From the NCBI GenBank assembly GCA_022606425.2, contig JAHDVF020000880.1, forward strand, positions 372,001-436,000: a DNA stretch of 64,000 bases. The letters run 5' to 3'. Position 1 is the stretch's first letter; each line of letters opens with the position of its first letter. The translations under genes were made by a program, and so were the position numbers. Below are positions 4,320 through 62,365 of the stretch, in pieces. The notes beneath the pieces were generated by a model, which was given only the letters and a program-made list of their open reading frames with translations, was not told where the DNA came from and did no database searches. The DNA comes from Lepidostoma basale. Lineage: Eukaryota; Arthropoda; Insecta; Trichoptera; Lepidostomatidae.

Positions 4320-4511
4320 GTGTTTTAAAACTCCCCTAATTTTTTTTTTAAGAAAACTTGAAGTAAAATTTGTGTAAAAAAAGTCTGCATTCAAACCAAA
4401 CTGTTTATCCTGTTATTATTTATTATATGGAAATACAAAGTAAATATTTTTTTAATGAATAATAGTTTTGGCCGAAAGACTTTGATACTTCAACATTATT
4501 AACTGTTCAAA

Positions 4512-4960
4512 TTTATAACACTGTTATGATACCACAAATATATGCGATAGAAATTAGATCTCTTAGACAAATGTGTGAGTACTCTGTGTATGATAGAGTG
4601 TCGAATGAAAATATAAGTGATTGCGGTGCGAATGATGGTGTTATGAACAAAAGAATGAAAGGATCATTAAGATGGTTTGGACACATGGAAATAATGAATG
4701 AAGAAAAATGGTAAAAAAAGTATACGTTAACGATGTAAATAGGACTAGAAATAGAGGAAGACCGAGGAAAACGTGGCACGATCAAATAAATCAAATTTTG
4801 AATGTCGTCGGCCACTTGAGAAGTCAGAGTATTCGACGTGCGTGCATGAAACGATGTATGAATGTGGAGGAGTTAGAGAGGTATGTCAGAACAGAACGGT
4901 ATGGCGGTCCATCCTCTCTGCCTACCCCTCCGGCGAAACGACGTGATGATTAGTAAGTTT
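4512..4960 (+). mobile_element. LINE-A 3' fragment
   Basis: It encodes [19 protein letters not shown], then [15 protein letters not shown], followed after a frameshift near 4705 by [19 protein letters not shown] and the [17 protein letters not shown] segment. It ends at a degenerate GATGATTAGTAAG tail. It is 5'-truncated and inactive. Confidence 0.75.
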
Positions 4961-4972
4961 GATATACTATAG

Positions 4973-5000
4973 TATGGGAATGACATATGTCATTCCCATA
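4973..5000. repeat. Perfect 28-base palindrome (FB1 remnant)
   Basis: The arm TATGGGAATGACAT is followed directly by its reverse complement. The same arm occurs in the larger FB1 palindromes (for example near 12940, 46640 and 52590), so this is probably an FB1 element that has lost its central hairpin. Confidence 0.7.
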
Positions 5001-5034
5001 AAACATAATAAAACTATTAAATGTTTAAATTTGA

Positions 5035-5235
5035 AACACTGTATCAACATTCATTTGTGAATTTGTCGAGACAGCTGTTTCGCCAACCTATGTTGGCATC
5101 ATCATGTGTTACAAGCAACTTATTGTTGTTGTTAAAGCTTTTTGCAACACCCGACGATGCCAAAATAGGTTGGCGAAACAGCTGTCGCGACAAACTCGCA
5201 AATAAATATTGATATGTAATAAGAGTGTTTCAAAT
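5035..5235. repeat. FB2 palindromic element with two opposed hammerhead-like arms
   Basis: The plus-strand arm reads CAC, CCGACGA, a hairpin with GCCAA/TTGGC arms, GAAA, CAGCTG, TC (about 5144-5195). The minus-strand arm mirrors it (about 5060-5115) with core ATGATGA. Both follow the layout of a type I hammerhead ribozyme, but each has a core substitution (U4 to C, and C3 to A), so neither should cleave. Confidence 0.6.
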
Positions 5236-5274
5236 TTAAACATTTATAATTTTGAGTATCGTACCGTTTCGGCC

Positions 5275-12500: not shown

Positions 12501-15500
12501 TATTCTATCCTGACATATCTCTCTAGCTTCCTCCACGTTCATACAGCGAGTCAAACACGCACGCCGATTCTTCCGGCTTCTAACATGACCAACCTTTAAA
12601 ATTTGATTAATTTGGTCATATGTTTTCCTCGGTCTATCTCGACTCCGTACTCAGTTTACATCGTTAACGTATACTTTTTTAACCATTCTTTCTTCACCCC
12701 TGCGCTCCATATTATTATTGTTATTATTATTATTATTATTCTGATGACTTGTATTTTAAGTGCGCCCTTTTTTAAAATCAATTACTCCAAGGGCGCACTA
12801 GGAAATGACTGACCGAACAGTGCATATGTCCGATCCTTTCATAATACCTTCTTTCGCTCTACATTCCTTTCGACCGCAATCTAATTTAATACGAACGAAA
12901 ACTTTTGTTTTCTAGGTGTTCTATTATATTTTATGGGAATGACATATTTCGCCTTGCTAAGGGTATCATGTACCTTGGCAAGGCGATACATGTAATTCCC
13001 ATAAAATATAATCCAACTAGATAACAGACGTATTTATTCGTATTAGTTATTCCTAGAGGAACTAGAAATAGAGGAAGATCGGGGAAAAAGTGTCACGATC
13101 AAATATTACGGGGGCCATGTTAGGAGTCGGAGAAATCGATGTGCCTGTATGACACGATGTATAAATGTTATGGAAGCGAGAGAAGTATGTCGTATAAACG
13201 TGACGGTCCATTTTTTCTGCCTACCCCTTCGGAGAGTCGGCGTGATGGTTTGTTAGTTATTCCTAATGTACCATAGCGCTACTCACGGGTGGTATGTTTA
13301 CCTTTGTGTTCGGAGTTCTTTGAGTTGTGTGTATTGTGATTGGAACTCCACACATATGCATCTATTTTTAGATATTTACTTTAATTCTGAGATTACAAAT
13401 CCAATTTAGTTAGTCGCTTTGTGGACTGCAATAAACATTAATCCGATTGTACGCGGTCATTTATACACTATTTAATTAATTTTACTCTTGAGAAAACCGC
13501 TTTTGAAACCTATTATTTCTTCTCAGTCATTCGCGATCCATTCATTTTTGTAATCGCGTAATGAAGTTTACTAATATTAATTTTCCGGTATTATATTATT
13601 GCGACAAGATGTCTGTAAGATTTGTAAAATATTATTTCGAAAAAATAGAAAAACATGAATACTTGTGTTTTCTAGATGTTTTATTATATTTTATGTGAAT
13701 GACATATTTCACCTTGCTAAGGCCTTTCACGATGTATGAATTTTGAGGAAGCGTATGTCGGGAAAGACCATTGTGACGGTCGATTCTTTTTACCTACCTC
13801 TTCGGAGAGACGGCTTGATGGTTAGTTAGTTTAGTAAAACTTTATTTCATATTCAAAAATGTTTCATCGTTTTTAGATTTTCAAGCAAAACAAGGGATTT
13901 AAAAAAATATTTTGCTTCTTATTTTTATTTTACACAAATGGGTAACAAACGAACAGCATTTAGGCGTCTCATTTGAACATTAAATATTGAAGTTTAATAA
14001 AAAAAAAATAGTAAATTAACGTTTGAGAGAACATATTTACATATAAATAAACAACATATCTCAAAAGGTTCCCAAATATGTCGACCTCAGTGAGGTGGTA
14101 CTCTTTCTAGAAGTATTAATGATGTAAAACTCTATATTAAATAATTAATTCGAACGAGAACGTCTGTTTTCTAAATGTTTTAATACACTTTATGGGAATG
14201 ACACGTTTCGCCCTGCTTAACCATTATTAAATGTCTTATTTTAAACATTTGATAATCCCTTACCAAGGCGAAACCGTTTTCCCCATAAAATATCTAGATA
14301 ACAGACTTTTCCATTCGTGTTAATTATTGATAATATACTGTTTATGAACACGGCCTCATTGACACTAAAATTTCCAAATCTGAGGTGATGCGTTTAACCC
14401 TTTTGTGCGGCTGACTACATTTGGAATCCAAAAAAATTTCAAACTGGGCGACTATATTTGCATATCACATTAATGAATTTCATATATCTTATAAACCTGT
14501 ATTTACTTTATTTATGACTAATAAATTGTACATAATCGGGTGGTGGTCTAGGGGATAGAACGCTCTTCTCCTGATCCAAGGGAGGGGACTTGGGTTCAAG
14601 CCTGGGCACGGCCAGATTTCTTTTTCATCTTCTTCAGCTTGTCTCAATCCACTGCTGGACGTAAAGTCTCCACCCCCACGCCAGCTCTCTCGGTCTCAAA
14701 TCAAATCAAATCAGTCTATTTCACCAATAGACATTACAAAATTATTTTTTAAGCCAGTGTTCTCCAGGCCCTTCCCGCCGTCCGTACAATATCATCGCTC
14801 CACCTGGTTGGCTGTCTCCCGACACTTCTCCGGCCCAACCTTGGCCTTAATTCAGTAATCTTTTGGCTCCATCTTCCTTCATCCCGTCGACACACATGAC
14901 CAGCCCACTGCCACGCCATCCTCGCAATGCGTATCCCTACATCGTTGACCCTGATACGTCTTCTAATCTCCACGTTGGGTATATGGTCTCTAAGCGAGAT
15001 ACCCAACATGGATCTTTCCATGGTCCGTTGTGCAACTTTGATTTTGTGCATTTCTTCTTTAGTTAACGTCCATGTCTCGCATCCATGTCATCACATGTAA
15101 CACAAACTGGTCCAGCATTTTTGTTTTTAAATTTTGTGGCATTTCCGACTTGAAGATGTTGCCCAGCCTTCCGAATGCAGACCAACCGAGCTGTATTCTC
15201 TTATCAATCTCCTTGACTTGACCCCCTCTTCCAAAAGCCAACAGATGACCAATATACACATATTCATCTACCACTTGTACATTTTTATTATGGATTTTAA
15301 TTTCTTCAATTTGTGTGTTAGTCAATATTTTTGTCTTTGTAATATTCATTTTAAGGCCAATTTTTTTAGATGATTCATTTAAAACTTTCAGCATTTCTTG
15401 GAGTTGTTCGGGAGACTCTGACAACAGAATTATATCATCAGCGAATCTCTAGTGACACAAATATTCTCCGTTTATGTTGTCTTCTTCATAATAATGAGCT

Positions 15501-18500: not shown

Positions 18501-21500
18501 ATAAATCATCATGTAAACGTCTCATAATTATTTTTTTCAATATCACCAATATTTTTCTTTCTAATGTAGATGTGTTTATAGTCGTTGAAGATGTTTGTCA
18601 GTGTAATTCGGTTTACGACACGAGAAGTTGGTCCTTTCTTGTGGCTGAGATTATAAATGTTTACGAGATTTCCGTATCGAAGTATCCAATAAAAAGTAAT
18701 TATCAAGCTATTGTATTAAAAGCGTAATGAGACATAATGAGTGAAGAACCGCCGCCGCTCATGCTTCCGAAAGCGGGGGCGCCGCTCCGTCTGGCCCCCG
18801 CCCGCCGGCCAGGTTAGGCTAGGTTAGGTTAGGTTAGCACCTGTAGTGTGCAGACCGCGCCTCCCCCGGCATCCGCCGCGAATATCTCCCGAGGCACGGT
18901 CGCTATCTATGTCACAAATGACGGCAAATTAGTACTCTTATCGTCCAACTTACTCACTTCTAATTGTAAATAATAGAATGTAAAATTTTAAATCGGCGAA
19001 GTCACGTGACGATTGAAGTTTTTATTACATTAAGACATTGATTGTGATATCTTATATCACAATTTCGCAATGTATTTATTTACGAAGATGGTATTTTCGA
19101 TTTAATGAATACTTGTGCTAATGTCAATATAGTAAGATACTATAAAATATGGTATATACGAGCAGTGGCGGTACTCTAATAGAAGCCTAGAAGCCCGGTT
19201 TACGTAAGAAATTTTGAATCAAAACCTCTTCTGGCTTCAAGAGGTTCAGCTCTTGTGGCTATTCCTCCTACCTCTGATGGAAGGTGATTTGGTGGGTTGT
19301 TGGTTTATGCGGGGGCACGATTTCTTAGATTTGGATGTTTCGATTCATAATTTCTTACGCAAACCGGGCTTCTGGGCTTCTATGGGAGTACCGCCACTGT
19401 ATACGAGTAGTATAGTAAAAATGTCGGTCACGTAAGGAGTCGGAGAAACCAACGTGCGTGCATGACGCGATGTATAAATGTTGAGGAATCGAGTGAAATA
19501 TATAAGATGAAGTTTGAAAGAACAGTGTGGCGGTCAATTCTTTCTGCCTACCTCTTTGAGGAGACGGTGTGATGGTTAATTAATATAAAATATATTAAAA
19601 CTTCTAGAAAACGTTTTTATTTGTATTAATTGTTTAATATGGAGTTTTCCATCAATATTCAACAAACAAAAGGTCAATATAATCATTAATATTTTTAACT
19701 TTCGTATGAAGCACTTCATTTATGGTGTGACATTATTAAATAAAAGAATAAAAACTTATTATTTGTATCTAAACCACTTTATTTGGTAACATCAACCGGT
19801 TTCGCTCCCGCCAGAGCTTCGTCAGGGTGAGAGAATAAACAGTTTACTCTCTCACCCTGACGAATCTCCGGCGGGAGCGAAACCGGCCGGTGTTACCAAA
19901 TAATCTGGTGTAGATACAAATACCTACTAAAAGTGTATTATTATTTTATTTAGTAATATTTTATCTGAACATTTTTTTAAATGTAGTTTCATTTCACAAA
20001 CATGATTTGGAGCGTAGACGTCCTTCGTCAGTGTAGAAAATTTAACCTTACTTTAAAATACAAAATATTTATTCAAATGTGAATAGAAAAGGAGTCATTT
20101 TTTAAACCTTATCCGTAACTCTGAGTAAATAAGCCATTCTGAGTTTCGATTAATGGACACACTCCAGGATAAAAAAAATAGTGTATTTAAAAAAAAATAC
20201 CGTTGTATATTTGGTTGATTATTTGATTTTAACTAACTGACCATTACGCTGTTTTCCGAAGGGATAGGCAGAATGGATGAACCGCCACACTTTTATTTCC
20301 TTGCACACCTTTCTCGCTTCATCAACATACATATCGATTTCTCTAAAATTTGATCGATTTACTCATTTTATGGTTTCCTCAGTCTTCATTTATATCTTGC
20401 TCCTTTCACATAGTTAACGTATATTTTCTTCATTTATTCATTCCATGTTTCCAATCCATCTGAATAAACTTTTCACTATTTTATTCATAATACTTTCATT
20501 TGCACTTTCGCTTTATTTCGATTTTAATTTTCTAGAATTATTGATCATTATTATTGTAACTGTTTTTTTGAAATTCATTTTCGGACTGAAATAATTCAAC
20601 ATTCCGCGTCGAATAAAATAAATCAATTTAAATAATTAAAGCAAAATAAATTTAAATATGGGAACTCTTAAATATTATTATTATTTTGTTGACAAGCTCT
20701 TTACATCATTACATCGCGAGCCAAATCGACGTAAAGGATGAATATAAAGCGAACGGTTGAATATAGACTATAGACCGTCATAGGCGGAATATTCTTGTAT
20801 ATATTTGTGCACCTGCAAGCGGGCGATCCAGCTGCCGTTCTCCGGAGGCGCCACGTGCCCGCACACAGGGGTGCACATTCTCCCGCGTGACGTAACGAAA
20901 TCTCGTGGCGTACGCACAAAGATTGGCGAATTTACACGTGACCCGATCAGATGCCCGAACATTATGTGTACATTTTATTATTTACACAACACCACCCCTT
21001 GTAATTCCAATTTCTTATAGGGAATACTCGTGACAATATTGAGATAGTCTGCAAAAAATCTTCATTTTGTTTATTATATACTAGCTGACCCGGCAACGCT
21101 TCGCTATTGCTATATTAGAGTATATAAATACACCCAATATATATTAAAGAAATACAATGAAAGTTCAATATCAATTATTTTATTGGATAAAATGACATGT
21201 GTATAGGTGCAAGAATGTGTGTATCCTAATTCAGTTCATATCTTTAAAACATTTGTTTAATCCAAGCAAACTTGCTGTGAACTTGAATAATACTAATGTG
21301 AATTGAACCACTGAAGGCTGGGCATTACCAAGGTGGCAAGTTTGCAAAAAGTCTGAAATGAGTTTTTGATGCCAATTGGTCTTAAACATAGCTGTGCAAA
21401 AGCGCGTTATGATTTAATAATATAGTGTAGTTCAAACGTTACCCTAAAGATGCCACCCAAAAAAAAGTTTATATATATCTTTTTCAGCTTTATGTTTAAA

Positions 21501-39500: not shown

Positions 39501-42500
39501 TAAAATCCCTGAAAATCGTCGTCTGAACTTTGGTTGCATTTTTATATTAATTTCGAGTATAAGACGCACCTGAATTTTGGAGTCAATTTTTTGAAGAAAA
39601 AAATTCGCCTTATAGTCTGTAAAATACCCTAATTGGATAACATTTTTGCATTATATCCTTATCCTTGCAGATCTATCATTGTTTCAAAATATTTAACTAA
39701 AAACTATTGAATATTGTATAATCAAAATTAATAAACCTGTTCTTATAAGTATTCTTCCGAGGATACCTGATTGCGAGGAAACCTTTCACGGATACAATTG
39801 CATTTGTGTGTAATATTACTACAATAGCTTTTTTCTTTTCTTTGTTACAGTAACAAGCCCAACCCAGCGATAATAAATAATAATAAATCTAATAATGTGA
39901 TGAATGGAGGCACTAATGGATCCGCGGTTAATCTCACATCGGGCGAGATCTGCAGTTCCTGTCAAGGTAATCTTGTTTCCTTATAATAAAAGTGAAATGA
40001 TTCTAGAAATTATTAAACCTCTCCAGCATTATTTAACCACCATTGGCTTCGTTTGCAGTAAAAAAATATATATTGAACTGCGGTTGACTACATATACAGC
40101 TCAGATAGAAATTCTAGTTCATTGTATTATTTACATTTAGTAGTAAGGAACTAAAGTAAGAAAGGTTTATAAGATACATTCAAATATGAGCTGCAAATGT
40201 AGTCTGCCACGGTTTGAAATGTAGCCAGTTACTCTATAGGGGTTTAAGACTATGTCATTTAAGAGAATTTTTTGCTCAAATCTCAGTATTTTGATGTTAC
40301 ATTATTTGGATTATGGTTGTCTTTATCTGTTTAAAATTTATAAATTTAAAAACTTTTTAGATAATCCATTGTTCTGGCGGAAACACTTTGATATTCCAAC
40401 ATTATTAATTGTTTAAATAAAAAACTTTGTTTTAAATCGGGTGGTCAGTGAAATGACTGAAGATTCAATAAGAATGAGCTTTACAAATGAGAGTTGCACG
40501 AACAGCGGAAGTGAAATTACTGAAATAAATTTGAACGAGATAGTAAGTGCTGTAAGATGTATGAAAGGTGGAAAAGCTGTCGGATATGACTGTGTAGCCT
40601 TAGAGTTTATCAAAAACGGTGGGCCGGTGGTTTCAGCATGGTTATATAGACTCTTTAACCAGTGTTTAGAGGAGGGATATACGCCGCTCGACTGGAGGAG
40701 GGCTGTTATCATGCCTCTTTATAAGGGAAAGGGGTCTCGTATGGACTGTGGAAATCACCGGGCAATAAGTCTATTAAGCGCCGTTGGTAAACTCTACGGT
40801 CGAATTTTAATAGAAAGAGTAAAAAAGACGACGACTGAAAGAGTATGGGATGTGCAAGGCGCTTTTATGACCGGAAGAGGTTGTATGGATCAGATTTTTG
40901 CACTTCGAACGCTTGCGGAGAAGTTTATGGCCAAAAACCGTAAGCTTTTCTGTGCGTTTGTCGATTTGCAAAAAGCCTATGATCGAGTGAACAGAGAAAA
41001 ACTGTGGTCAATCTTGTCCGAATACGGAGTGAGCACAAAACTGATACGGGCGGTTGCTTCTCTCTACGAAGGGAGCACTGCCAGTGTTAGGGTAAATGGG
41101 GACATCACGCCCTGGTTTGATATCACGAAGGGTGTTAAGCAGGGCTGCGTGATGTCCCCTTGGTTGTTCAATCTGTATATGGACAAGTGTATGAAAGAAC
41201 TTAAAGGTATAAATGCTGGTGCTAAGATGAGTGATCTGTCTGTAAACTGTCTGCTTTACGCGGACGACGCCGTTCTCGTTGCGGATAGTGCGGACGAATT
41301 ACAAGTCTTGGTGTCGAGAATGTATGAGGTATGCAAGTCGAACGATTTAATGATGAATGTCGGAAAGTCAAAGGTGTTAGTTTTTGAAAGGGAAGAGCAA
41401 ATGACAGTTTGTAATATAAGTGTAAATGAAGAGAACTTGGAACAGGTGAGCGAATTTGTGTATTTAGGTAGCATGTTCACAGCGGATGGCCGAACGGACA
41501 GTGATATTGAAAGAAGGGTTGGTGCGGGTAACAAAGTGAATGGAGCTTTAAAAGTAGTTATTGGAAACAAGAATTTATCAATGAAAGCGAAAATGGCCGT
41601 TCACAATGGAGTTCTGGTTCCAACCCTTATGTATGGAAGCGAAGCATGGAACTGGCAGAAGAAAGATGAGAGCAGAATAAATGCGGTAGAGATGAGGTCC
41701 CTAAGACGTATGTGCGGTAGAACGATGTACGACAGAATCTCAAATGCTGATATTAGGAAAGAGTGTAGAGCGAAAGAAGGTATTATGAACAAAATTATGA
41801 AAGGTTCGCTTCGTTGGTTCGGACATATGGAGCGCATGGGTGAAGAAAGAATGGTTAAAAAGTATACGTTAACAATGTAAATGGAGTAAGGAGTCGAGGT
41901 AGACCGAGGAAAACATGGCATGACCAAATTAATCAAATATTAAAAGTTGGTCATGTCAGAAGCCGGAAGAATCGACGTGCGTGTATGACTCGATGTATGA
42001 ATGTGGAGGAAGCTAGAGAGGTGTGCCAGGATAGAGTAGTGTGGCGGTCCATTCTCTCTGCCTACCCCTGCGGGGAAACGGCGTGATGGTTTTGTTTGTT
42101 TTGTTGTCTAGGGGACAGAACGCTTGGCTCCTGATCCAAGGGACATGGGTTCAAGCCTGGACACGACCCGATTCCTTCTTCATGATAATGAGCTATTTTC
42201 TGCTCATATTGAAGATTGTTAAATTAATACTATTGATTTAAATATTACAATTGATTATATTTTGTCACGACAGCTGTTACTTTTAAACCTTATTACTTAA
42301 TTGTTTACAATATTGTGTGTAGTTTCTTCCCCTCCTAATATTGATATATATAAACTAAGTTTTTCTGATGTATTTTTTACTTGATTGTAAGACCTGACGA
42401 TGCTACCATCGGTTAGCGAAACAGCTGTCGTGACAAACTATAATCAATTGTGATATTTATAACAAAGTTTTTTATTCAAACAGTTAAAAACTTATTGTTT

Positions 42501-45500
42501 ATATTTTTCTCAGCAACATCATCTTCCCAGTGGTACGCGTGGGGCCCCTCACAGTTACAAAGCAGGTTGTGTTCTTCATGTTGGCAGTACTGGAAAAAAT
42601 ATGGAGGATTCAAAGTAAGTTTTTTTTTGTTTGTATATTTTACCGAGTGCCATTAGAAATGTTGAAATTTCAAATGTGAATCAGTTACGACAGAAAATTA
42701 AATATTCCTAATTATGTTGGGTGTTATAAAAATGTGGTCCGATCAAATCAATCAAATATTAAATGAAGGCTACGTGAAGAGTCGGAGACATTGACTTGTG
42801 TGCTTAACATGGTGAAATAATGTTGAGGAAGCGATAGAAGTATATCATGAAAGAAAAGTGCAACTCCATTCTTTCTACCTACCCCTTCTGGAGACGGCGT
42901 GATGGTTAGTTAGTTAGATAGTTATTATATCAAGTATTATTCAGTGTATCCAGGTGTAACTAACTTCCTAAAACAAGATTTTTGGAAATATATTTGACTC
43001 AAAATAATTCTAAATCAATATAAGGCTTGATTAATTTTACTTTTGAGTTTGCTGACCACTGTCTTAGTTAGCTAATTATTTTAATAAGCTTTAAATAAAC
43101 TAATGGGCTAATTTTTAGTTGTGTTGTATGATTTTTTAATTTTTTTCCATAATTGTCAATGTTGATGTCAGCAATGTAGATCAAAAAATCTATCCATAAT
43201 AATCTCATAAATGAAGTGGTTACCACCATGAGATTTCAGTAAAAACATTAGATTTCTTTTATGTACAGTTTGATATTTATTTAATTCTTGGATGCATTTC
43301 AGGTGGCCGGTGGTGTGTGTGAAGGAGAGGCGGAAACGCCCACCCCTGCCAGCGGAGCGACGGGAGCAGCAGCGGAAGCCGTTCGAGTGCGGGGGCCCTT
43401 TTATGGGGGCCGCAGTAGTGATGGAGAGGAGCCTGGGCCCCCGGGTGCACACCAGGCCTTCTCACACCGCCCTCACCGCTGCACAATGCTCAACTGTGGG
43501 AAGGTTAGAACATTGCCATCTCAATATTATAATTTTTTTTTTCTCGTATACAACAAGGTCGTTTGAACCCAATTACTGTATACAATTTATTTTAGCTATT
43601 ATATTGATTCTCATGACATGTGATAGGTAGCCAATCTATTGCCATTTTATTGTCACATGAATTCTACACCAGACCAAAGACAGTGCGACAATCACACTGC
43701 TATCGCCGGGAATCAAACCCGGGACCTTCGGTATGGAAGTCAGAACTCTTACCACTCTGCCACGAAGGTTGACAAATTTTATTCCCCTTTGAGCTTTTAC
43801 ATGTGAATTTTAAGTACTACAAATCTTTTTGAATAATCTACAATATTTATTCAAGTTGCAGTTTCATTGGAATAAATCACCGATAATCATATATTACCGA
43901 AACAAGTTTTGGCTGCTTTAACCCTCGTTGTAAAAAATATTTGTCTCGAACTGCGGTTACCTACATTCACAGTTCAGACAGAGAGTCCCAGTTCATCGTA
44001 CATAATGAACTAAAGTTAAAAGGTTTATAAGATATGTTCAAATTAGAGCTGCAAATGTAGTCTGCCACAGTTCGAAATATTTTTTTTTGGATTGTAATTG
44101 TAGTCAGCCGCACTAGGGGTTAAAAGCAAAAGGAGAACATATATCCTATTAAATAAAAAAAAAGGTTGATTGTAAGACTTGATGATGCTTACATCGGTTA
44201 GGGAAACAGCTGTCGCGACAAAATATAATCAATTTTGATATTTATAACAAAGTTTTTTTTAAAATAAAAACAGTTAAAAATTGTTTTATTTTTGTACGTC
44301 ATTTGTTATTTTTTATGATTAACTATTTTTTTTTTCATTCATTAATTTTTATTTTTTTTAACCCTTAGGACACTGGGCGAATTTTCAATAACTGTCCTCC
44401 TGGGACGTAAATTTTGACATTCCGAACGCTCTCATACAATAATTAATTAGGAGAAAAATAAGACTTTCAACGAAAAAATAAAAATGCCAAATGAACTATT
44501 AACTTATAATCTATCTTTATAAATAATAAAAGATGTACTTTCAATACTTAAACAAGTTTTTTTGAAGTGTTTTCATCTAAAAAAATACCATATTACGCAG
44601 CATCCACAAAAAGAAACACTCATATCTAATCAACGATATGGATTATCGTAAAAATTCTTTCACAAGACCCGAGAACGTACTTCTCACTAAAATAATGAGT
44701 CCTTTGATTATCATGTTACTATTTCGGTAATTAATTATAGAATTTTTAAATAAACACTACGAAATTATTGCCGCGTACACACACACTATCGCAGCCGCGC
44801 TGTGTAAACATACGAGTAGGTGATTACACGTTGTTCGTGTTTGGACTTGTTTCGGGCGGGCGTTGTGATATACTCGTATACGTAAAATTCCAAGAACAAC
44901 GATTTTTTTTGTATTAGGAGTCAAGGGAATATTACGCAAGAAATGTCATCCGGTTAATCTTAATGTTTTTTTTTTTCGTTTTTTACAATTTCAACCAAGA
45001 AATTTCAAATAATAAAAATATATTTTTTTAAGATAAATCTTTCAATCTCATCATCATCAATTGGTAAAATTTAAATTATTGAAATAACACTGTCATCAAT
45101 TTTTAATAAATTAAAACAATAATTTTTCCACTTCTTACTTTATTTATCTCGACGTGTTTGGATGGTTTTAAACCTATATATAACCTTCGAAACATGTCGA
45201 TATAATTATATAATTTTTCATACCGTTTATAATTTTTTCCAATGAATTCTTTGAAACATATCGAAAAAAAATTAACCAACAAAAATATTTTTTTAATTCA
45301 TAAAAAATCGTCTTGGATGGAATGGAAATCCAAAACGTTAATACTTAAAAAAAAAAGTAGTTAACACAAACGTATTTAAAAATACGAAAACTGTTAGATT
45401 ACACATTTTTTCAAATCACATCCTTTCAAACTTTACAATTTATAAGAAGCTAAACAGTTCTTGCTCTCGGTTCTCGTCCATAACATATGGGCACCCTAAA

Positions 45501-48500
45501 GACCATTGAAATCTGACTCGTAGCTGTAAGCCGCGGCGCGCGTGTGACTGTGGTAGTGTTCCAGTTCAGCCCGTACGATTTACATCTGTCAAAAAATATT
45601 TATTTAAATTAAACCCTATGCAAAAAAAATAATCTGTTAACACCAAAATGTAGCCAAGACCCTAATTGATAAAATGACATTTTTACTTTTGTTTAAAACT
45701 TACAAGTAGAGATGATATTCGTTGACAAAACCGAGTGAAGGCCTAACACTGCAATTGCAGTGTAAAGGACCGCGGGCACGCTTTTTCGCCACTGCAAATG
45801 CAGTGTATAGGATTCTAAGAGTTAATCAAAAGGGTTTTGTGTGAGGAGACAAAAATCCTTTAATATGAAACACTTACGCCATTATTAAAGATAATTATAA
45901 CATTTGTGCTTGAATTAACTGAAAAATGTTTATGGTTTGATAAAATAAAATATAGTGTGTAAAAACAAAAGTACACAAGTGTTATAAATTAATTTTAGAT
46001 TATAATCCGTTCGATTTATCCAGACATACGATTCTTCATAGAAATATTGCATCAAAGTTTTGGTATAGCTAACACGACAATCAATTTTCCAGGAGTTCAA
46101 ATTGAAAGCCCAGCTGGCGAGACACGTGGCCGGCGCACACGGGGGCTCCCTGCGCGCCGGCTCTCCGAGGCCCGTCATGAAGACCCGCGCCGCCTTCTAC
46201 CTGCGCACCTCCCCCCTCACCCGCCTGGCGCGCCGCATCAGCCGCGCCCTGCGCCGCCCCCGCCGCATCGCTCGCGCCCCCTTCACCCCAGTCAACCTGC
46301 ACCAGGTCAAGCAGGACTGTAAGTACACAAAAAAATTCTCTCACTTGTTAACTAAATTCTAATACCTTAACGGACATTACTCACCTCTGATAACAGTAAT
46401 ATGTCACTGCGGTCATATGGAGGTGACATGATGAATCATGTGGAATCTGCGTGTAATTACTTTGTCAGTTGAATATTACCAATAGATCGATTAACATACA
46501 CAGTGCCTTTTAAAATTTAAATATTGATAGAATAACATATACAAAAGATACAAAAGTTAGCATCCGATAAGGGTTAATAATATCACCAATAATTAATACT
46601 AATGAAAATGTCCGTTTTCTAGAAGTTTTATTATATTTTATGGGAATGATATGTTTTGCCTTGTATGATATTTCTGATATTTAAATGTATAAAAACATTT
46701 GATAATGCCTTAATAAGCCAAAACATGCCGTTCTCATAAAATATAATAAAACTTCTAGAAGATGTTTTCATTTGTATTAATAATTTAATTTTGAGTTTTA
46801 CATTAGTCAGAGAAATCGACATGCGTGCATGACATGATGTCAAATCAAATCAGTTTATTTCATTAATAGACATTACAAAATTAAGGTTTAAGGCATCTAT
46901 TGATAACAGGTAAAATAATATATTGCATATAGTATACTACCAGAAACGCATGAGAGATGGTTTGACATTAGGAAGACAAGACACTCTCCAGATTCAAGAG
47001 TATTTGCCTTCTGAACGTACTTTCACTAATATGAAAGATGTTGATCTCCGAGAAGACCGTGTTCAGCAGATTAATTGCTCTTTCCACCGGTGTCACCAGA
47101 GGCAGGCTTCTGGCGGCCGGTAGGTAAAACAATCTATGCCGTTAGAGACATCTATCAGGGACAAAAAGCCGAACACCCTCCAGCATGGCTGAGAATGTAT
47201 GAATGTTGAGGAAGCAAGAGAAGTATGTCAGGAAAGAAGTGTCTTTCTGCCTACCCCTTTGGGAGAGACTTGGATCTTCTGGCTTACAGAGGTTCAGCTC
47301 TAATGGATATTCCTCTTACGTCTGTAGGAAACATTGTTGGAATGCGATTTGGTAGTTGTTTTATGATGGGGCTAAATGTATGGCCCGGAGTGTCCCTCCG
47401 AAAGAGGGCGAGGGGGGATTTAGGGTTTATGATAAAGTCTTACATTATTGTCAAGGAATGGAAGACCAGTTAGGGTTGGGATTGTATTTATAAAAAAAGC
47501 CTGTTCCCGAGGGGAAGATAAGAGAGGAGCAGTGCCTGGATGGAGTTGGGGTAGGAGATAGCATCCTGCGTGAGACCATTTTGTTTGGCGGAGTACATAG
47601 TAGGTTATCGGGGAGGATTTTTTTTTTTGTCCGCGTTGATTGCGGGAGGGGTAAGGACTGAATGATGGTGGATAACTTGGTGGTGATGGTTAGTTAGTTA
47701 GAGTTTTTCAGTTTCCAGGTTCTTGGGATGCCACCTGGGCCTTGGATTATGATTGACTATATTAAAGTTTGTGGATATTTGTGTATTACAGGTAGCGTGG
47801 GCATGGCAGGGATGAACCAGGCGGAGCTCGCGGCGCTTGTGGCGGGGCGCGGCGGGCGCGCGCGTGGGCAGGTGGCTCGCGTGGCGGAGCGCTTGGCCGG
47901 GCCGCACGTAGCGCACGTACCTGGGGCTCCGCAGCACGCCTGGCTGCGCCTCACACCCAAGGACCGCATGCCGCAGCCCGCCAAGATGGCCTTCCCCAAG
48001 CCACCAAAGGCTCCAGGTCTGTTTCATTCATGGAATTACCCATTCGTAATTTATTTCTTGATGATTATGGTTCTAATTTAAAATGTGATATGAATCCTTT
48101 GTTTAGTTACACCGGGTTCAGTGTGTTTACAAATATTGAAAGGGGTAAAGTGAAGTGTTCTTTATTTCTTTGCCCGCTACGACTAACTTTAATCAGATTA
48201 ATCACACACGAGATCCCGATGTGCACAACTGACTTTAGTCGTACACATCAGGTGTGTGTGTGTGTGTGTTTATTTATTCTGCAATATTGGAGAATGTTTT
48301 GTAAAATAATCAATTTTGGCTAAGTGATTTAGTTTTTAACCCTTATAGTCTGGCTGGCTACAATAGCAGTACGCATATATTCTCTGTGTTTAACGTGTAA
48401 TATCCCGTAAATTTACTATTACGGACCAAAAATAAAAATGAATATTATATACACTCATGTATTCTTTGTGATTTAGAGTTGAACTTTCATCCTTTTTGTG

Positions 48501-51500: not shown

Positions 51501-54500
51501 TTCATTAATGACGGAGATTTCCGGCTAACTGTTCAGCAGTTATTTCAAAATTTTCATCGAGTCCACCATTATTTGAAAAGCACTGGTATAATGGGCAAGA
51601 TGGGAATTTGGGTATTGCATGATCTATCCACAGACAGACAACAGAGAAAACTGTATCAAAACACGTAGATCGTTGGTGTCGAGACATAGAAATCTACCAT
51701 ATTTGGAATCATCACCGAAGATGAAATACAGATTTGTTTATAAATATGTGAAAAGAAAAAACAGCGGTTCTCAAAAAATCATATATCTATTCCGAAACCT
51801 GGATTAACATTTTATTAGGGTATGTGTGGCATCATCCGCTGTGAACTTATAAAACCAGGAGAGATAACTACTGAAAAATTCTATTTTCAGCAATCAGAAT
51901 GATTAAATGAAAAACTTTAAAATTAAACTGTCAAAATTCACACATCCTCACAAATGAAAAATTAACACAATTATACTGGGAAGTTTTATCTCATCTACCA
52001 TATTTACCAAACTTAGCAACTTCTGATTATTTTTTGTTTGGGTCTTTGGAGCATTAATTAAATAAATAAATAAAAATTAAATATGCATGAAAAAAAAATG
52101 TTTTGGAAACTTATAATCCATCTAAATAATGTTAATCTATCTAACCTGGCTAGTTTTTTTTTAATGAAGGGGTTTAAAAATTGACAGAGATTGAAATAGT
52201 TACAAGTAATGAGATTACTTACATTTTTATTAGTTTGTATATTAAATATACTTATTCTTAAAATGAAAAATAATATATTTCTTTCTGAACAACCTATTAT
52301 TGCAATGATAAAATTGTTCCCTAAATCCACACTAATAAAGGCAGTGGCGCTGAGTATCACAATCTTAAACAAGAATGGTGTTGGCAACATTGAAAATATT
52401 TAGATTTTTTGTATGCAGGTACCGAGATATGTAACTCTTTATCTTTTAATTAGGCGCTAGGAAACTGATTATGTTAAATAAAATATCGTTTTCAATGGAG
52501 AAAACAAAAATACATACCAAAAAATAACATTTTTATTGTTTCTTGAATGTGAAAACGTCCGTCTTCTAGGAGTTTTATAATATTTTAAATGGAATAACAT
52601 GTTTCGCCCTTTTGATAAAGTCTTAGAAGGGCGAAACATGTCATTCCATCTAAAATATAATAAAACTCCCAGAAGACGGACGTTTTCATTCATATATACT
52701 TTTTATTCCATCAAAAATAACTTCATTTCATTTATATAACATTTTGTGATTCAATACTGAAATCCAGTTTATAAAAATCTTTAACGAGTAATAATTTGTA
52801 TTGCGAATATGAAATTATTAATACATTTTTCACATCAGTAACAGATTGTGATTTCTTTATTATTTTTTGCATATTTGATTAGGTTTTGAAATGATTGTAA
52901 TGACCGGCGCCTCTTGCCACAGTTTGTGGGTATTCCTTTGTCCCGGATGGTAGACTAATAGTTTGTTTGTTCTTGCGATTGTTGGCTTCTACTCTGACTT
53001 GGATTGGGATGACGGTGAGTGACAAAGTGAGAATTTTTCTCATGTTTTATTATTAATAGTAATGGTTTCCGACAGTTTTTATTTTCTCTCAATTCTATTA
53101 TTATATATAATTTTATTTTGTTTTATAATTTGTATTTTTTTATATATTTGAAATGAAGTATGTTTCAATCCATACATTCCTCCAATAAATACATAGGTAG
53201 ATTTTTATCTTTGATTTTATTGTACATAGAATGCTGTAAATTGAAATTCGGTATGTTACGTGGGACATTTATTGTAATAAATGTAAAATATGACATTATT
53301 AACCCTTAACGGACGTAATGACTTACTGCGGTGACTTTGTCGCTGCGGTCGTATGGCACATGTGATGGGGAATCATGTTGAATCTTGAAAGCTAGCGTCC
53401 GATAAGGGTTAGTTTTTAGATTAAGTCAGTTTTTAGGCATGCAACTGATGTTTTTTTTTAATGATTAAATATGATTCTAAAATAATCAAGGTAATCCGTA
53501 TCAATATAATTTTGGTTTGATTATTGTCAAACTATTATAGTTTGAATCTAAATGAATTAATATAATAATTATGAATTAATAGGGGAGTTGTTAATAAAGA
53601 AATAAATTAAATGGGTTGTGTTTTTAAAAAATTAGAATAAATCACAAGTTACTTGCGATTGGTAATTAAGCATTTTACATCAAACTAGGTGGTGGTCTAG
53701 GTTATAGAATCCTTGGCTCCTGATCCAGGGGACTTGTGTTCAAACCTGGACAAGACCAGATTCGTTTTTCATAATAATGAGTTATTTTCTGCTCATAGAT
53801 TGCAAAATAAATTCCAATACCATTGATTTAAATCGGTTGATAATTAATGAAACATTGATTGCTAAGTACTGAAATTACTACCGAAATCTTTTTAAATGCT
53901 CAATATACGCCTAGCGCGTATGTGTATATTATATATGACATCTAATATACAATAAATTCTAGTTTTTTTTTTTATTTCCATTGGTTTCATTCTTTATTAA
54001 TATAAGACATAATTTGAGCTACTTAGCAGATTATTTGAAATGTTTCGATATGTGAGTGGAAAAAAAAAGTTAAACTGAAGTAGAAATTGGTGTGTTTAGA
54101 GCTCTAGTACCTGAAACTTAATAATATGATTCATGCATAAAGATACGTATGTGCAAGGTTGATTAAGAGTGTTTGTGTCCCCAGGGGGTGGCGCGGAGGG
54201 CGGGGTGTCGCTGTTTTCCGCGGCGGCGGCGGGCGCGGATACAGCGGTGCGCGGAGTGCCCTTGCCAGCCAAGCGGCCTAACAAGCACCCGCAGCCCATG
54301 CAGCGGCCCTCGGCGGAGCAGTACGCCGCCATGTGCGCCCGCGCCCAGGCCACCGGACAGCCGCTGCCTAAACACATATTCGCACACGTAAATATCTCCC
54401 TCGTCTCCTTTCATTTATGAAGCAGGTGCCATGTTAACACACCTGCTGTTACATAAATATATGAGCTGCAAATATAGCGTGCTTCAGTTCAAAACAATTT

Positions 54501-57500: not shown

Positions 57501-57624
57501 ATATAATTTGTCGATTTGATTTAAAAAAATGATTTTGGGTGAGACCTTTAGTTTAGAATTATTAATATTTCTTGATCTTTTGTGACAAAAAATGTATAAT
57601 ATCACTTGTTTTATTATTATTATA

Positions 57625-57765
57625 GCCTTATGAGAATGTCGTGACAGCTGTTTCGCCAAACAACTCTCACAACTGAGTTGTTTGTAACACCTGATGATGT
57701 CAACATTTGTGGGCAAAACAGCTGTCGTGACATTCTCAAAAAGTGTATAATAAAAAATAAAAAGT
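57625..57765. repeat. FB2 palindromic element
   Basis: The plus arm (57681-57732): TTTGT-AA-CAC, core CTGATGA, hairpin, AAAA in place of GAAA, CAGCTG, TC, GTGACA. Helix I pairs CAC/GTG and TGT/ACA. The CUGAUGA core is perfect, but the catalytic G12 is A, so this copy should be inactive. The minus arm keeps TTTGGCGAAACAGCTGTCAC. Confidence 0.65.
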
Positions 57766-57812
57766 GATATTATAACAATGTTGTAAATTTAACACTTAAT
57801 AATGTTGAAGTA

Positions 57813-62189: not shown

Positions 62190-62365
62190 TGAAAGCATCT
62201 GTTTTCTAGAAGTTTTATTATAATTTATGGGAATGATAAATTCATCCTTTGAATAACGTCACATTTGATAATTCCTTAGAAGGGCAAAACATATAATTTC
62301 CATAAATTATAATAAAACTTTTAGAAAACAGAAGTTTTCATTAATATTAATTATTTATTATGGAG
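62190..62365. repeat. FB1 palindromic element
   Basis: Arms CTGTTTTCTAGAAGTTTTAT, TTTATGGGAATGATAAATTC and mirror; centre TTGATAATTCCTTAGAAGGG, CAAAACATATAATTTCC. Confidence 0.7.

Follow-up and report, generated by a model that had tools for sequence, protein, structure and literature searches.

A decayed type-I hammerhead motif in a dispersed, pseudo-LTR-like repeat of Lepidostoma basale

A hammerhead motif found in an intron of Lepidostoma basale is very probably a decayed type-I copy, located near the 3' end of a pseudo-LTR (pLTR) of a Penelope-like element (PLE). The motif resides on the plus strand of a 64,000-nucleotide stretch of contig JAHDVF020000880.1 (positions 372,001 to 436,000 of the contig; here called the window, the numbering of which is used below). 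It belongs to a dispersed repeat family in which the ribozyme core is frequently retained, helix II displays compensatory changes and neighboring units are mainly arranged head to head, i.e., with the ribozymes facing outward. Hammerheads of sister families are found beside sequences that encode the GIY-YIG domain.

Core, helices and covariation

The type-I core, C3UGANGA9 ... G12AAA ... U16.1 H17, is found at 42394-42429 with one extra nucleotide after A9. On the + strand, the motif is composed of the core segment CUGACGA (C3-A9, 42394-42400), an inserted U (42401), helix II with its loop (GCTACC/GGTTAGC, 42402-42417), the core segment GAAA (G12-A15.1, 42418-42421) and a self-complementary helix III, ACAGCUGU (A15.1-U16.1, 42421-42428), which comprises CAGCTG at 42422-42427 and T42428. 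It ends with C42429 (C17), which is followed by GTGACAA at 42430-42436. From hammerhead numbering, the cut is predicted to occur after C17, i.e., before 42430. On these letters, the stretch is confirmed as a minimal type-I hammerhead motif, of the kind with a palindromic helix III. An earlier, sequence-only reading of the window had described the same motif, including the very short helix III; its letters, coordinates and strand (+) were all found to be correct when the sequence was re-read, and the core and the palindromic helix III support its assignment to the minimal type-I kind. The reading had also held that every invariant position is satisfied. The core (C3-A9, GAAA and UH) is indeed complete, but the U inserted at 42401, a family-wide feature, had been overlooked. 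Similarly, the letters of the proposed helices were correctly placed, but helix II consists of GCUA/UAGC plus one C-G pair around a C42406-U42413 mismatch, and helix I beside the core is formed only by C-G and A-U, followed by G-G. The U at 1.2 and A2.2 form a pair that is found in 10 of the 49 distinct rows of the alignment discussed below.

Because ACAGCUGU is palindromic, a single molecule could form no more than 2 bp of helix III, closed by a 4-nt loop, and two molecules could pair over 8 bp. A possible distal helix I, seen in the predicted fold (42382-42390 with 42439-42447), would extend the motif to 42382-42448 (+ strand). Pairing of TTGT with ACAA, proposed in the sequence-only reading, competes with this helix; energies of cross-pairing gave no preference, and the distal helix displayed better pairing with its own partner in 4 of 11 clusters.

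A descriptor that allows the features of the site, and which was composed after the site had been seen, identifies one site in the window, compared to a mean of 0.04 in 200 dinucleotide shuffles, 8 of which contained at least one site. A relaxed descriptor that demands three contiguous helix I pairs yielded zero sites within the window. The lone site is only moderately surprising; its significance comes from the repeat family. A match in a scan with Rfam covariance models, proposed in the sequence-only reading as a check, did not materialize: the window as a whole gave no match at gathering level, and zero hammerhead families were found at E ≤ 10 in the segments 42380-42440, 42000-42800, 5000-5260 and 19720-19970. 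This result is a weak refutation because the library also misses the other tested copies.

Covariation was analyzed in an alignment, A1, of 49 distinct rows of the window copy's family. Here, the second pair of helix II is C-G in 32 rows, U-A in 5 and U-G in 4, while the third pair is U-A in 34 and C-G in 11, i.e., compensatory changes (C-G/U-A and U-A/C-G) are found in this helix. Over the whole structure, 19 cells are changed on both sides (shuffled mean 8.0), and 80.7% of the cells are paired, compared to 79.5% in the shuffled alignments and 17-63% in slid versions. Two of the five measures are not above the shuffles, i.e., double-change pairs (4 vs 4.4) and further pair types (14 vs 14.8). 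Helix I is poor, with pair 2.2/1.2 unformed in 39 of the 49 rows and the next pair in 35. Among nine representative genome sequences, three of which came from a descriptor that requires pairing, 94 of 108 pairs form, and one nucleotide (U or A) is inserted after A9 in all nine. The six other representatives, among which the window row had been picked in the sequence-only reading and the row of locus L091 was picked by eye with the pairing in view, form 60 of 72 pairs; the mean upon swapping strands is 48.0, and none of 5000 swaps reaches 60. By helix, these six form 27 of 30 pairs in helix II (reached in 22 of 5000 swaps), 15 of 24 in helix I (154 of 5000) and 18 of 18 in helix III, which is little varied (374 of 5000). 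The covariation support is strongest for helix II, and it is weak for helix I.

Dispersed units and head-to-head palindromes

The motif is part of a dispersed, pseudo-LTR-like unit at 42290-42490 (+ strand). Its genome copies, which mostly align at 85-92% identity, begin at 42290 or 42298 (many of the best ones at 42290) and extend to ~42490 when a longer query is used. The unit is therefore ~200 bp long, and the ribozyme is located close to its 3' end. When at most two mismatches are allowed, CAGCTGTCGTGACA has eight matches in the window compared to 0.15 expected; upon inspection seven of these are repeat elements, and the match at 46111 is unrelated. A genome search with 42235-42465 as query yielded at least 92 matches, where the best 40 of 1,390 candidates were scored. 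An 18-base piece of the consensus, GAAACAGCTGTCGCGACA, is found in 6,758 exact copies (3,399 + 3,359) in the 768.8-Mb genome, compared to 0 for a backward control. A search of viral_contigs with an exact 18-mer gave 0 matches. The window copy is not among the 6,758 copies; in its sequence a T replaces the second C of CGCG in GAAACAGCTGTCGCGACA.

A total of 60 stretches in the window and 29 fetched loci match the unit; 51 of these span the core, and the other nine are excluded from the counts. The inserted T is found in all 51 copies, as is UH, while GAAA is found in 48 and the full set of CUGANGA, GAAA and UH in 37. Because these copies were chosen by similarity to the window copy, the retention of the core is biased upward and the sample favors well-kept relatives. 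Helix III reads ACAUGU or ACCGGU in further families of this genome.

Neighboring units at most 150 nt apart (n = 19) are arranged head to head in 13 cases, tail to tail in 4 and on the same strand in 2, and a head-to-head partner within 150 nt is seen in 11 of 30 sources. Among the matches of GAAACAGCTGTCGCGACA listed, opposite-strand neighbors within 200 bases are found as minus-plus pairs, i.e., with outward-facing ribozymes, in 8 cases and as plus-minus pairs in 0. The window itself harbors a second copy of the same subfamily at 44166-44293 (+ strand, 85% identity to 42381-42508), where C3 of the core is changed to U. The window also contains a palindromic element at 5010-5253 with two outward-facing hammerhead copies, both mutated in the core, and another at 57595-57774, in which G12 is mutated in the right copy and the left copy is devoid of its 5' half. 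A tail-like stretch is shared between 4486-4535 and 57764-57812 (88% identity).

The palindrome at 19732-19957 represents a different family, referred to as family B; its two hammerhead motifs face outward, and one of its sides carries a tail. A genome search for this stretch gave at least 80 matches, mostly at the same places on both strands, where the best 40 of 2,789 first-look candidates were scored. The majority sequence of 46 halves is CACC CUGACGA A GCUCC GGCG GGAGC GAAA CCGGUU GGUG, i.e., the core and the one-base insertion are equal to those of the window copy's family, while the stems are different. In 23 head-to-head palindromes of family B, the full 3' tail is found on one arm in 18, on neither arm in 5 and on both arms in 0. 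Words of 8-13 bases are shared between the flanks in 8 of the 23, compared to 4.7% of 506 crossed pairs, as for target-site duplications. Downstream of the cut, AAAGTGGT (expected 0.004 times per 70 nt) is found in family B, both in the left arm of its window copy and in the majority sequence, as well as in the GIY-YIG loci L078 and L079; it is absent from the window copy's family.

Other elements are found in the window. An uninterrupted frame of 595 codons at 698-2485 (DDE_Tnp_1_7, 2.7e-87), with a C-terminal zinc finger, is presumably akin to piggyBac transposases. Short MITE-like elements with the inverted ends TTTTATTATATTTTATGGGAATGA, unrelated to the hammerhead, are located at 4973-5014, 12918-13019, 46624-46753 and 62211-62323.

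Penelope-like loci, intronic setting and rival explanations

A search for GIY-YIG (PF01541) in the genome gave at least 62 matches, where the best 150 of 541 candidates were scored. In 30 of these loci (96,786 bases), the descriptor with the one-base insertion identifies five hammerheads in four loci, compared to a mean of 0.02 in 100 shuffles; the descriptor devoid of the insertion identifies 0 in the same loci (shuffles 0.05). At L078, a hammerhead is located on each side of the GIY-YIG sequence, both facing outward. At L091, which represents a family other than the window copy's subfamily, an uninterrupted frame of 758 codons with RVT_1 (1.3e-13) and GIY-YIG (4.9e-05) is flanked by 406-bp inverted repeats that are 99.5% identical, one of which extends beyond the end of the fetched stretch. 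Near both outer ends of these repeats, as fetched, are hammerhead-like motifs with U instead of A6. The arrangement of EN+ PLEs, i.e., head-to-head pLTRs with an optional tail on one side, is encountered in 13 of 19 pairs of units, in 18 of 23 family B palindromes and in the L091 repeats. The link to Penelope-like elements that was drawn in the sequence-only reading holds for sister families in the same genome, while the parent PLE of the window copy's subfamily was not found. Matches (blast) of the window copy's family or of its 57-kb relative are located in the GIY-YIG loci L065, L074, L077, L082 and L087, but these may be due to chance at such a copy number, and no parent is therefore identified; nor was an autonomous PLE for the subfamily found among the 30 GIY-YIG loci. 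Inspection by eye of the surroundings of the window copy revealed no target-site duplication. Elsewhere in the genome, pairs of GIY-YIG sequences in opposite orientation lie close together (G000:C1549:6391-7377, C1139:246337-247262 and C542:509392-510538), which suggests inverted Penelope-like copies.

The head-to-head arrangement may be explained by a model where PLE transcripts carry the ribozyme, and the PLE reverse transcriptase/GIY-YIG endonuclease would cut both strands of AT-rich DNA. Reverse transcription would begin not far downstream of the ribozyme. Each of the two cut strands would prime the copying of one RNA, and the cDNAs would meet to yield a head-to-head pair, i.e., two pseudo-LTRs with outward-facing ribozymes and an optional 3' tail on one of them. 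If intact, the ribozyme would cut after C17, and this would probably work best in a dimer formed through the palindromic helix III or with the aid of protein. The window copy, the subfamily of which would likewise belong to the PLEs, apparently landed in a SINE-like repeat in an intron of a GATA-finger gene and later mutated. A more specific proposal, which we regard as tentative and which may well be wrong, is that family B and its kin are distinct, highly amplified non-autonomous PLE derivatives. These would be composed of two head-to-head pseudo-LTRs, palindromic so that either strand gives one outward-facing ribozyme, and the hammerhead, always with one inserted base, would be kept as an aid to template release or end definition in two-sided target-primed reverse transcription.

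At the window site, the SINE-like repeat is located at 42103-42243 (+ strand, 81% identity to 53692-53833), and the element is apparently inserted in its 3' end. An inverted, partial second copy at 42233-42278 (- strand, 91% identity over 46 nt with 42420-42465) constitutes a head-to-head arm that includes the 3' part of the hammerhead only; the outermost ~10 nt of this arm overlap the SINE match. Downstream, an exon at 42514-42614 (+ strand), preceded by AG and followed by GT, encodes a GATA zinc finger (Pfam GATA, 2.6e-06 on 42516-42614) and starts 84 nt downstream of the predicted cut. Upstream of these features, a frame of 479 codons at 40441-41880 (RVT_1, 2.2e-34) encodes a reverse transcriptase, which we take to be of the non-LTR type; many copies of the 3' end of this element are found in the window (e.g., 4700-4971 and 42729-42920).

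The sequence-only reading envisaged that the pre-mRNA of the gene, which it named MTA, could cleave itself at 42429; an active ribozyme in the intron would then either regulate or damage splicing. The C3-A9/GAAA/UH core, which is complete, lies on the sense strand and precedes an exon by 84 nt, would be compatible with this, as would the U at 1.2 that pairs with A2.2. This explanation is improbable. For 42380-42448, the hammerhead-constrained fold is predicted to lie 10.3 kcal/mol above the best fold, and both helix I and helix II contain mismatches. The corresponding differences are 5.1 kcal/mol for the subfamily consensus and 2.5 kcal/mol for family B, and the predicted best fold is not a hammerhead in any of the three. 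These folds were obtained with a nearest-neighbor model that excludes tertiary contacts, and the energies are rough because the constrained folds omit the core-proximal pairs of helix I (for family B also helix III). A transcript that includes the inverted arm is predicted to form a long hairpin (-72.4 kcal/mol, z -9.35) that covers 42420-42465, i.e., in the model the arm can sequester the 3' half of the hammerhead in the same transcript. From the fold gap of 10.3 kcal/mol and the sequestering hairpin, self-cleavage of the pre-mRNA is therefore held to be unlikely. The window copy also looks like one among thousands of dispersed insertions; it is worn and probably does little, and its position within the intron is most likely accidental. 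For the GATA-finger gene, the site would be of little consequence unless cleavage occurs. The possibility of an in-frame ATG close to helix II, like that of the Anolis element PAc (see below), was also considered and dropped, as the frames soon reach stops in the copies read by eye.

Two further explanations concern the element rather than the site. It is small and abundant, has inverted arms and shows no coding capacity, and in this respect it resembles a MITE or foldback DNA transposon, the terminal inverted repeats of which would be hammerhead-like by accident. Yet, no more than 11 of 30 sources have a head-to-head partner within 150 nt and units in other orientations are found, the tail is present on one arm only, and the putative duplications of family B vary in length. 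In addition, the stems covary across families while the core is unchanged, and similar motifs are found beside GIY-YIG and RT/GIY-YIG frames. The MITE explanation was abandoned on the basis of the L091 repeats, the data on orientation and tails, and the hammerheads in GIY-YIG loci, and we consider it highly improbable. Somewhat less remote, but still unlikely, is a non-LTR retrozyme, i.e., a non-autonomous element spread via circular RNA that is cut by hammerheads in tandem repeats. Short, non-coding metazoan repeats with type-I hammerheads are known, also from insects, according to the part of PMC7229834 considered here; these are described as tandem direct repeats, yet neighbors on the same strand account for 2 of 19 cases in the present family. 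A decayed hammerhead copy in a PLE pseudo-LTR agrees best with these observations.

Comparison with known systems

Hammerheads in PLEs are already a known kind, of which the present family is another instance. As described in the portion of PMC7761336 drawn on here, minimal type-I hammerheads are found by the thousands, both dispersed and in the pLTRs of PLEs, and their role is called unknown, a "mystery". The type-I order, the very short or palindromic helix III, the association with PLEs and the thousands of dispersed copies are the same here, and no clear difference is apparent from that portion of the text. In the sections of PMC3088659 considered, other insertions in the core, a palindromic helix III and possible dimers are described, and an insertion after A9 was not seen. 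A limited literature search in the contexts of inverted repeats, palindromes and MITEs led to no recognized description of palindromic hammerhead elements. Metazoan non-LTR retrozymes are likewise short, non-coding repeats with type-I hammerheads, but in the excerpt of PMC7229834 they form tandem direct repeats and circular RNAs, unlike the units discussed here.

A closer likeness in architecture is found in the Penelope elements of Adineta vaga, where, in the available part of PMC3846280, inverted pLTRs are arranged head to head, a 31-bp tail is optionally present on one of them, duplications are 8-10 bp and solo pLTRs occur. The word hammerhead is absent from that paper, and its authors favor self-priming on an antisense template over two-sided priming. 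In the PLE PAc of Anolis carolinensis, the hammerhead is located at the start of the ORF and reverse transcription has an internal start, 111-118 bp from the beginning of the ORF. The tail corresponds to the stretch between two starts of reverse transcription, and cutting and extension take place on both DNA strands (PMC11167929). The PAc ribozyme cut only with protein, and ribozyme mutants were without effect on insertion in vitro (PMC11167929). The hammerhead near an internal start of reverse transcription, the AT-rich target, the tail defined by two such starts and the cutting and extension of both strands resemble the model outlined here, while the tandem repeats of PAc with the ribozyme at the ORF start differ from the short units found here, which are often head to head (PMC11167929). 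With thousands of natural copies in several families, many of them head to head, and a one-sided tail in family B, two-sided insertion becomes testable from genome data. The pattern of head-to-head units with one tail fits a PLE protein that cuts and extends both target strands, as in PAc (PMC11167929).
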